IMG/VR virus record: IMGVR_UViG_3300017744_003666
Location: 1-22,019 of that record
Direction: 5' to 3' (one strand)
Source: a virus
DNA: 22,019 nt
How positions within the stretch are numbered: position 1 is the first letter of the stretch; each line of letters starts with the position of its first letter. The notes under the pieces were generated by a model, which saw nothing but the letters and a program-made list of their open reading frames with translations, was not told the DNA's origin and searched no databases. This document shows, piece after piece, positions 20 to 9,590 of this stretch. The translations under genes were made by a program, and so were the position numbers.

Positions 20-603
20 ATATTATGTCTTTCGGGACAAAAGTTTTTTGACAAATTGAAAATGGAAAGTAGAGAGACTAATTATCTCTCTATGGGATTG
101 ACCGAACAATGAGTGACTTCGAAGCTCATAAGGTAATCCGCTCTTAGACTCGTGGTGCGTTGGTATTCGGGTAAATGTTCAAAATACCTTGCGACAGCAT
201 TAAGAGAATGTACTTTCAGATAAAATTAAGAACGCGATTCTTAGACCTTGTTATGGGTAAGGGTAAAACCGAAATCCCATCTTGTGACCGAATAAACTAA
301 ACTCAGAGAGTTAAGGTAATGGCACAGAGGTTGTACTCACTTTGACGATGACTAACCATCATTGAGGAGAACCAAAGTAACTTTTGGGTGTTAGGTACAA
401 GGTAAAAAAAATCTGAGTCTGAAAGTTGTAGGTATTCGCAAATCCTACATCCCCAAATTTTCATTTTTGGAAGGTATCTTTACAGATTGAAAAGATGAGA
501 AGGGTGTTATTGTATTCCCTAACTTTCCATTTATTTAGGTGGTGAGGCTTTCTTACATATACCCGATAATTTTAATTATCTAAAACTCACCACCTTTTTT
601 TTT
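20..603 (+). ncRNA. Candidate large structured noncoding RNA ending in an intrinsic terminator
   Basis: No credible reading frame covers this stretch, but it holds many perfect complementary segments consistent with one folded RNA. An outer helix pairs 60-70 with 522-532 (11 bp). Inside it are 71-77/85-91 (7 bp, 7-base loop), 95-103/132-139 (8 bp, G100 bulged) enclosing 109-113/125-129, 141-147/200-206, 162-167/183-188, 227-232/238-243, 253-257/276-280, 301-307/412-418 (7 bp) enclosing 331-337/394-400, 427-432/444-449, 453-457/466-470 and 501-504/517-520. A UUCG-capped 5-bp hairpin (26-39) precedes the outer helix. 164-170/288-294 (7 bp) and 245-251/397-403 (7 bp) are alternative or pseudoknot pairings. 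The terminator follows the outer helix directly. Length and ornate layout recall the phage-associated GOLLD and ROOL RNA classes, but I could not match a consensus. Ends are approximate. Confidence 0.6.
537..603 (+). terminator. Intrinsic terminator of the noncoding RNA region
   Basis: A perfect 10-bp stem pairs 537-546 (AGGTGGTGAG) with 586-595 and runs into nine T residues (595-603). The 39-base interior carries its own 6-bp hairpin (565-570/575-580). GC-rich stem plus U-tract is the classic Rho-independent layout. It separates the structured RNA region from the gp32 transcription unit. Confidence 0.8.
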
Positions 604-8603: not shown

Positions 8604-9590
8604 ATGTATAAATTGGAATATCTATGGTTGGATGGATGTACACCAACTCAAATTAGGTATAAAACAAAAGTTGTAAAAGAACCATTAAAAGTACCTGAAT
8701 GGGGATTCGATCCTATTTGGGGATTTGATGGTAGTTCTACTGAACAGGCAGATGGTGGTAGTTCTGATTGTCAATTAAAACCAGTAAGGGTTTATCCAAA
8801 TCCATTAGAAGAAGATAGTTCTATCGTATTGTGTGAAGTCTATAATGTAGACGATACACCACACAAATCTAATACGAGAAGATTATTAGAAGAAACTATA
8901 CCTGATGGTATTGATGAATGGGTTGGCTTTGAACAAGAATACACATTATTTAAAAATGATAGACCATTAGGTTGGCCAGGACATGGTGAACCAGCTCCAC
9001 AAGGAGATTATTATTGTGGTAGAAATATCGGTGAAAATATTTCAAGAGAACATTTAAATGCTTGTATCAAAGCTGGTATTAGTATTTGTGGAACAAACGC
9101 AGAGGTAATGTTAGGACAATGGGAATATCAGATTGGTGCAGGTGGTTCAATCAATATGAGTGATGACTTATGGGTTGCTCGTTGGTTATTAGAAAGAATC
9201 TGTGAGAAGAATGGAGTTTCAGTATCACTACATCCAAAACCAATTGAAGGTGATTGGAATGGTGCAGGATGTCATACCAATTTTTCTACGAAATATATGA
9301 GAGATGAAGGTGGATATATAGAAATTATAAATGCCTGTGAAAAGTTATCAAAAAATCCACAAGAACATATTGATGTGTATGGTCAAGATAATGACAAAAG
9401 ACTTACAGGAGAACATGAAACTTGTTCTATTGAAGAATTTCGTTATGGTGTTTCAGATAGAGGAGCATCTATCCGTATTCCGTGGCAGGTGGAAAGGGAC
9501 GGTAAAGGTTATTTAGAAGATAGACGACCATCTTCAAATTGTGATCCATATGTGGTTTCACAAAAACTAATTCAAACAATTTGTAGCTAA
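8604..9590 (+). CDS. Glutamine synthetase, eukaryotic-type (GSII) family
   Basis: This enzyme would form glutamine from glutamate, ammonia and ATP. The 328 residues match the GSII family throughout: EYLWLDG (5-11), WGFDGSSTEQA (39-49), GFEQEYTLF (108-116, metal-binding Glu), PLGWPGHGEPAPQGDYYC (121-138), NAEVMLGQWEYQIG (165-178), HPKPIEGDWNGAGCHTNFS (210-228), DRGASIRIP (285-293) and YLEDRRPSSNCDPY (303-316). All catalytic blocks look intact, so it is probably active. It is slightly shorter than usual (about 340-370). AAGGAG overlaps the reductase stop and sits 7 bases before ATG 8604, so the two genes are probably co-transcribed. A likely role is supplying glutamine nitrogen for purine and pyrimidine synthesis during infection. 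GSII in a phage suggests capture from a cellular genome. Confidence 0.93.
   Translation: MYKLEYLWLDGCTPTQIRYKTKVVKEPLKVPEWGFDPIWGFDGSSTEQADGGSSDCQLKPVRVYPNPLEEDSSIVLCEVYNVDDTPHKSNTRRLLEETIPDGIDEWVGFEQEYTLFKNDRPLGWPGHGEPAPQGDYYCGRNIGENISREHLNACIKAGISICGTNAEVMLGQWEYQIGAGGSINMSDDLWVARWLLERICEKNGVSVSLHPKPIEGDWNGAGCHTNFSTKYMRDEGGYIEIINACEKLSKNPQEHIDVYGQDNDKRLTGEHETCSIEEFRYGVSDRGASIRIPWQVERDGKGYLEDRRPSSNCDPYVVSQKLIQTICS

Follow-up and report, generated by a model that had tools for sequence, protein, structure and literature searches.

A conserved, structured RNA lies at the head of the viral DNA window analysed in this study, by which we mean the whole stretch of 22,019 nucleotides (positions 1 to 22,019 of IMG/VR record IMGVR_UViG_3300017744_003666). 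This folded RNA is not a new family, but an enlarged form of the known phage RNA manA. Comparison of homologues indicates that a single molecule carries two manA-type cores, with an outer fold in the manA order, a second core apparently located inside the penultimate stem and equipped with its own closing helix and pseudoknot, and a predicted kissing contact between the penultimate and terminal hairpins. In the reading that we favor with modest confidence, the stretch is a free-standing noncoding RNA gene of the manA family, with two cores, its own promoter and its own terminator, whose product acts in trans. It is likely to be a stand-alone gene rather than a gene switch, and we infer that the RNA would act in trans with two equal binding cores.

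A conserved RNA precedes the SSB gene

Positions 1 to 712 of the window precede a gene for a gp32-like single-stranded DNA-binding protein (SSB; 713 to 1483; PHROG 1192 and 224, with E values of 2.4e-13 and 5.6e-12), which is followed by a UvsX-like recombinase gene and, further on, by a DnaB-like helicase gene (PHROG profiles). All features described below lie, like SSB, on the + strand. The list of open reading frames (ORFs), which excludes ORFs running off the window end, holds none of at least 60 amino acids before the SSB gene at 713, in agreement with an initial annotation made from the letters alone, which had seen no gene in the first ~600 bases. Elsewhere in the window, an ORF at 8604-9590 is assigned by PHROGs only to a family of unknown function, and has what we take to be the look of a glutamine synthetase.

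Related viral contigs were fetched by means of the SSB and UvsX proteins, using the best 80 among the matches listed for each. A profile search located the RNA in 122 fetched loci, several of which share contigs; 105 of these copies are full length, and 54 distinct sequences were left once identical and cut copies had been removed. A smaller alignment (A1) comprises 34 of 36 distinct sequences, two near-identical ones having been dropped and 13 loci skipped that are cut by contig ends. Identity to the window falls as low as ~54% among the homologues.

BLAST and profile matches, the 54 full-length homologues and covariation place the conserved two-core RNA at roughly 41 to 465 (~430 nucleotides), which is about twice the length of the segment (252-453) that is matched by Rfam. 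The initial annotation had drawn the RNA from 60 to 532, closed by an 11-bp outer helix (60-70/522-532). This helix is exact in the window, but an equally long inverted repeat occurs in 34 of 500 dinucleotide shuffles, and at least 9 bp can form in only two of the 54 homologues, namely the window and a near-identical sequence. Moreover, positions 522-532 fall outside the part that BLAST finds conserved among related contigs, one of which (L003) lacks 463-533 altogether. Another closing helix, at 58-63/457-462, is plausible by eye; none of its six pairs has covariation support, and we do not claim it.

That the structured RNA at the head of the window is real is as good as certain. Only one of 100 shuffles folds as well as positions 55-540 (z -3.09), and the strong covariation described below likewise bears out the large, ornate phage RNA that had been suspected. 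The enrichment in G and C over the genes, previously sampled by eye, is mild (37.9% for 41-465, compared with 34.9% for eight genes and 33.3% for the whole window). A conserved reading frame, which the initial annotation had set against an RNA, is not found: no long open frame runs through the 54 homologues, whose longest stop-to-stop runs are 25-62 amino acids on the + strand (median 41) and 43-102 on the - strand (median 54).

Searches of named phages for the two-core RNA returned either no match or only matches of chance size (31-39 nucleotides). Two named phages with a near SSB whose regions were examined, Mel-JY01 and immuto_2-6A, have only ~110 nucleotides before this gene, which leaves no room for the RNA. 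As a clue to the host, psbA was found in none of 11 long records, which are fragments.

Covariation supports the proposed structure

RNAalifold applied to the 34 sequences yields 78 pairs, 57 of which show two-sided changes. The structure named in this study has 118 pairs, including two pseudoknot-type contacts, and 91.2% of its cells are kept across the 34 sequences, versus 75.6% in shuffles and 36-45% when the structure is slid. Both sides change in 80 of the 118 pairs, such that the covariation sought by the initial annotation in an alignment of homologues is present. The covariation score is 0.500 versus at most 0.124 for the slid versions, a comparison that favors the named structure because it was partly derived from the same alignment. 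Further pair types are not above shuffles (358 of 500 as high).

A null test of 100 simulations for the 54 sequences, in which each column evolved independently of the others along a FastTree tree, returned 20 pairs at E up to 0.05. Fifteen belong to the named structure, one is a new contact (234/439), and four (149/191, 149/198, 161/170 and 470/485) fall in no helix; 149/198 and 470/485 are never Watson-Crick, and 470/485 is outside the RNA. In a smaller null run, limited to 34 sequences, 13 pairs reached E up to 0.1, and each of them is a standard pair in 85% or more of the sequences.

The RNA is an enlarged relative of manA

The Rfam manA RNA (RF01745) matches window positions 252-453 with 67.7 bits against a cut-off of 55.2 (E 1.6e-15), and is the sole Rfam family above cut-off in the whole window. 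At a lax threshold (E up to 5), the only further match is a sub-threshold one to DUF2693. When applied to 44 records that carry the RNA, the manA model matches 43 (E up to 10) and exceeds its cut-off in 31; at such lax limits, chance matches appear in five of 14 control genomes, none of them above cut-off. In 14 of the 44 records, the model also aligns over its full length to the 5′ half, with E values from 6.1e-12 to 3.3e-6 and scores under the family cut-off. An earlier search of 22 records had given a double match in two and no match in 13. In the window itself, the manA model finds nothing in the 5′ half at E up to 5, which counts against the two-core reading.

The motif GACCGAAYAA-hairpin-UAAGGUAAU is present twice, at 100-139 and 286-320, and a test for manA that combines core and multiloop finds both elements twice, at these same places. 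Two cores are aligned in the 54 distinct homologues. Because there are two cores rather than a single unit of ~190 nucleotides, we regard the RNA as a variant of manA. The relationship of the 3′ half to manA is as good as certain, and that of the 5′ half is very likely.

Like RF01745, the RNA has the core GACYGAAUAA-hairpin-UAAGGURAU, a GUGGUG loop, a multiloop, penultimate and terminal hairpins, and a GGG/CCC outer pairing. Unlike RF01745, which has one core and 192 model positions, it has two cores in ~430 nucleotides, together with a further closing helix and a further pseudoknot. It also comes with a promoter-like block and a terminator of its own, and its neighbor is SSB wherever the contig extends far enough. 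Another cyanophage RNA, wcaG (RF01761), has a UGGUGCGGA stretch that recalls the GUGGUG loop of manA, but it differs in having 98 positions and another fold, and no wcaG match was found here. The tRNA cluster of phage S-CREM1 holds both wcaG and manA RNAs (1246-1343 and 1716-1930 of L293).

The outer unit follows the manA order

Ordinary manA, according to the Rfam structure lines, runs from a 5′ hairpin through a GGGaG strand, the core, a GUGGUG multiloop, a penultimate stem with an inner hairpin, and a terminal hairpin to a CUCCC strand, and the same order is found in the window. The 5′ hairpin (69-93; two of nine pairs significant) is followed by a GGGAU strand (94-98) that pairs with AUCCC at 449-453, as the counterpart of the GGGaG/CUCCC pseudoknot of manA. 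These strands are 350 nucleotides apart, around the second core, and are 100% paired in the 34 sequences; two of their five pairs show two-sided change and none is significant in the null test. The five pseudoknot positions are empty in the Rfam alignment of 252-453. Core 1 (100-139) consists of GACCGAAYAA, a hairpin at 109-129 and UAAGGUAAUC. Its columns are conserved and covarying, and it is contained in the second manA match of the 14 records mentioned above.

The outer multiloop (141-206) is formed by stem 141-145/202-206 (five of five pairs significant), a GUGGUG-loop hairpin at 149-159 (one of three, with pair 150/158 being a U-C mismatch in the window), and hairpins at 162-188 (one of six) and 190-199 (three of three). 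A 7-bp pairing of 164-170 with 288-294, previously put forward as a possible pseudoknot or switch state, is by eye not kept in the alignment: the first strand belongs to a local hairpin and the second to the second core. The penultimate stem, which we call helix X (212-219/419-426), encloses an inner hairpin (227-243) and the nested unit. It has at least seven pairs in 26 of 30 distinct strand pairs, with none of 1000 permutations as good, and 77.5% of its cells are paired in A1. The unit ends (428-453) with the terminal hairpin at 428-448 (430/446 and 431/445 significant) and the AUCCC strand at 449-453.

A second unit is probably nested in the penultimate stem

The nested manA unit (245-403) sits between the inner hairpin 227-243 and the 3′ strand of helix X, and the Rfam match begins within it at 252. 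It is closed by helix 245-251/397-403, three of whose seven pairs are significant. The initial annotation had proposed this pairing as a possible pseudoknot or switch state; the pairing is real and covaries, and we read it as a closing helix. At the head of the unit is a hairpin (253-280; GGGUAAGGG..AAAUCCC) that the manA model also takes as the end of the first unit, and that is 89.4% paired in the 34 sequences, with none of five pairs significant in the null test. Core 2 (286-320) comprises GACCGAAUAA, a hairpin at 295-312 and UAAGGUAAU, with 287/317 and 296/311 significant. The loop of this hairpin (302-307) forms a pseudoknot with 412-417 that is 100% paired in the 34 sequences and includes two significant pairs (305/414 and 304/415). 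The multiloop of the nested unit (320-393) has stem 320-325/388-393 (three of six pairs significant) and hairpins at 327-338 (one of three), 340-369 (one of nine) and 372-387 (four of six).

One manA core is likely to be nested in another, within the penultimate stem of the outer fold. We base this reading on the layout and the contacts, as the outer unit is by sequence alone far from ordinary manA: a sequence-only profile of ordinary manA matches the outer unit without its insert weakly (median 2.8 bits), while shuffled controls give no hits in 54. With this arrangement, the Rfam match at 252-453 would link the nested core with the terminal hairpin of the outer unit.

Two hairpin loops form a kissing contact

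Pair 234/439, which had not been proposed beforehand, is Watson-Crick in all 54 sequences (AU in 29, GC in 17, CG in eight), and no simulation among 100 gave a value as high. It belongs to a contact between the loop of the inner hairpin (234-237) and that of the terminal hairpin (436-439), wherein at least four bases are complementary in 25 of 27 distinct loop pairs. Mean complementarity is 5.19 in the two-core RNAs versus 3.97 when loops are permuted (none of 2000 as high).

Ordinary manA has the same property. Among 116 sequences, at least four complementary loop bases are present in 49 of 49 distinct loop pairs, with a mean of 4.69 versus 4.36 permuted (none of 2000 as high). The loops change and yet stay matched, as in CUGUA/UACAG, AUGUA/UACAU, UGUCA/UGACA (S-CREM1) and GAGUA/UACUC (AG-345-L05). 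Four pairs, each within a local stem, reached E up to 0.1 in a general null test on 103 ordinary manA sequences; the loop contact, varying little there, is not among them. The contact is absent from the Rfam structure line of manA, and in a literature search of titles, abstract openings and passages, neither it nor a two-core manA was described.

Promoter-like blocks and a terminator flank the RNA

A promoter-like block (1-26), made up of the tail of ..CGTTTGGGATTTTTTG.. and then TATATATATTAT, precedes the RNA, and by eye a similar block is present in the 54 distinct loci. Transcription would start near 26-30. A 5′ hairpin with a UUCG loop follows at 27-38, and then a U run at 44-49; a hairpin of varying sequence is seen by eye at the same place elsewhere. 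The UUCG hairpin noted in the initial annotation is thus present, with pair 29/36 covarying significantly and the other three of its four pairs not. The SSB message has a promoter-like block and 5′ hairpin of its own (611-669), and by eye the 53 loci shown have a similar block ahead of SSB. When the two blocks of the same genome are aligned, 29 of 52 loci score above 95 or more of 100 shuffles and the other 23 do not (mean score 24.6 versus 16.5 shuffled).

The strong intrinsic terminator that had been recognized behind the RNA is located at 537-602, and consists of a long hairpin and a T run. If a terminator is scored as a hairpin of -11 kcal/mol or better plus a T run, all 53 distinct loci that extend to SSB have one within 240 nucleotides of the RNA, versus two of 53 shuffled stretches. 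Its median distance from the RNA end is 5 nucleotides. The hairpin has a conserved inner AGTTTCCAC in 34 of the 53 loci and a ACATATACC stretch in the clade of the window. The RNA is missing from this place in relatives whose SSB is 95, 93, 90 and 87% identical, which keep the promoter-like block and the terminator hairpin; the latter may be an element of its own.

Across all loci, the partner of the 5′ arm of the terminator within the RNA is no longer than in shuffled RNA (7.44 versus 7.42). In 14 of 53 loci, which form the clade of the window, this arm can pair with 246-254 through eight or nine pairs; the window has nine, five of which are G-U. Such a pairing is a possible antiterminator in this clade, and would be in competition with the helix that closes the nested unit.

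SSB is downstream in 40 of 44 stretches found by the RNA pattern alone, a pattern that was itself derived from copies adjoining SSB, and the other four stretches end within 56 nucleotides of the RNA. Five loci have a small ORF between RNA and SSB, and these are five of the six loci (of 53) with more than 300 nucleotides there; in the three checked, the ORF is placed 3′ of the terminator and before SSB. An ORF of ~70 amino acids beginning MxIYWNKYYGYD lies between terminator and SSB in L320, L327 and L109, and occurs also in L004, L005, L087 and L092. A different small ORF, with CxxC pairs, precedes SSB in L020 and L021. In L087, L092, L010 and L014, SSB is preceded by an ORF (MNTGTVKWFDAKKGYGFISD) that we presume to be cold-shock-like, and no such RNA was found in the fetched stretch.

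Ordinary manA RNAs occupy varied places

In passages of Weinberg 2010 (PMC2864571), manA is described as a marine RNA of cyanophage and gamma-proteobacteria (two copies in the latter) that lies before diverse genes and is a possible riboswitch, its pseudoknot being given a question mark. It is typed as cis-regulatory there and in the Rfam annotation, and the same label recurs in passages of PMC9964418, PMC12197685 and PMC10665884.

The core pattern of ordinary manA is found with one core in 120 of 120 viral loci listed, a set that numbers at least 120, is biased by the pattern and includes several loci cut by contig ends. Ten annotated phage genomes out of 37 matching records were examined. 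The RNA follows gp23 in five (MED4-213, P-HM1, metaG-MbCM1, S-SSM5 and P-RSM4). It is located between regA and purL in P-SSM2, after pstS in P-SSM4, before gp32 in P-HM2, before a carbamoyltransferase gene in P-SSM7, and after NAD synthetase in P-TIM68, where the next gene is on the opposite strand. In S-CREM1, it fills the gap that separates tRNA-Leu from tRNA-Asn, with hardly any spacer left. A tRNA starts 177-183 nucleotides after the start of the manA core in seven of 120 viral loci, among the matches listed. GOLLD and ROOL, large phage RNAs that are frequently near tRNA islands, resemble the manA copy of S-CREM1 in that respect, and the word manA is absent from the passages of the text that reports this (PMC12286853).

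Where an ordinary manA locus has room, the next ORF is on the same strand in 90 of 101 cases, often within 60 nucleotides, and a terminator-like site precedes it in only 37 of those 90. Some ordinary copies may therefore act in cis. Regarding the phage-borne status of manA, one exact pattern gave 11 stretches in genome contigs, two of which are real manA, and both of these contigs carry phage genes. The manA contigs L341 (QCLS01000003.1) and L346 (PARM01000056.1), filed under Prochlorococcus and a gamma-proteobacterium, look like phage: one has a late sigma factor and an SbcC-like nuclease, the other a tail fibre and a transaldolase. Hypothetical proteins are annotated over the manA RNA in P-HM1, P-SSM4, P-HM2 and S-SSM5 (L355, L356, L358 and L359), and are probably spurious.

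Discussion

According to the reading that we favor, the RNA would be transcribed from its own promoter, of the same kind as that of SSB, and transcription would be stopped by its own terminator. The compact product would then act in trans, presenting the same binding surface twice to a protein, an RNA or a ligand. A stand-alone gene is suggested by the terminator in 53 of 53 loci, by the promoter-like blocks before both RNA and SSB, by the small ORFs between them, and by relatives of SSB without the RNA. The varied places of ordinary manA (between two tRNA genes, behind gp23, or before an opposite-strand gene) point the same way.

An alternative that we consider unlikely, and yet worth serious attention, is that the RNA is a cis-acting, riboswitch-like leader of the SSB and UvsX genes, with tandem aptamers and with the terminator serving as the expression platform. 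Cooperative riboswitches have tandem cores, as does this RNA. A fixed place upstream of SSB is also expected of a leader, and the closeness of the terminator (median 5 nucleotides), its possible alternative pairing with 246-254, and the frequent same-strand ORFs behind ordinary manA, a minority of which have a terminator-like site before them, all suit action in cis, in keeping with the published label. However, the promoter-like block of SSB sits after the terminator, small ORFs intervene in five loci, close relatives have SSB without the RNA, and manA copies elsewhere are flanked by tRNAs or opposite in orientation. Likewise, the antiterminator pairing over all loci does not exceed that of shuffled RNA, and more than half of its pairs in the window are G-U. 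The possible antiterminator in the clade of the window nevertheless led us to raise our estimate for a leader slightly, and to lower that for our favored reading to the same extent.

A quite improbable alternative concerns the route to two cores. A tandem duplication with re-paired strands would give a side-by-side dimer that shares hairpin 253-280, with no insertion. The two manA matches do overlap in this hairpin, by 32 nucleotides, in 10 of 14 records (by 2 nucleotides in the other four), and the hairpin is similar to a terminal hairpin as well as to a 5′ hairpin. However, the full manA order of the outer unit is preserved around the inner one, including the penultimate stem and the loop-loop contact. 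Even less probable is a plain manA at 252-453 behind an unrelated structured stretch. The Rfam match in the window is limited to that segment, but this idea is largely refuted by the manA matches of the 5′ half alone in 14 of 44 records, and by helix X, which together with the loop contact ties the halves to each other. The proposal of the initial annotation, that this is an undescribed RNA, be it a divergent GOLLD or ROOL or an ornate RNA of a new class, can be dismissed along with OLE and group I introns as highly improbable, since only size and complexity speak for it, none of these models matched at E up to 5 (which refutes them at the sensitivity of cmscan), and manA is above its cut-off.

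We tentatively extend the preferred reading of a trans-acting, stand-alone RNA to manA in general, which would then be a phage-borne, trans-acting RNA held by the loop-loop contact and not a riboswitch. The RNA in this window would be an intramolecular dimer, with a core in the penultimate stem and its own gene beside the replication genes.

For manA, an orphan among 'riboswitch candidates' since 2010, the choice between a cis switch and a free RNA can be tested directly in a form that has two cores, a terminator of its own and a promoter-like block, with the loop-loop contact as a point to break. More broadly, the nesting of an RNA domain within itself would be one route by which ornate RNAs grow.
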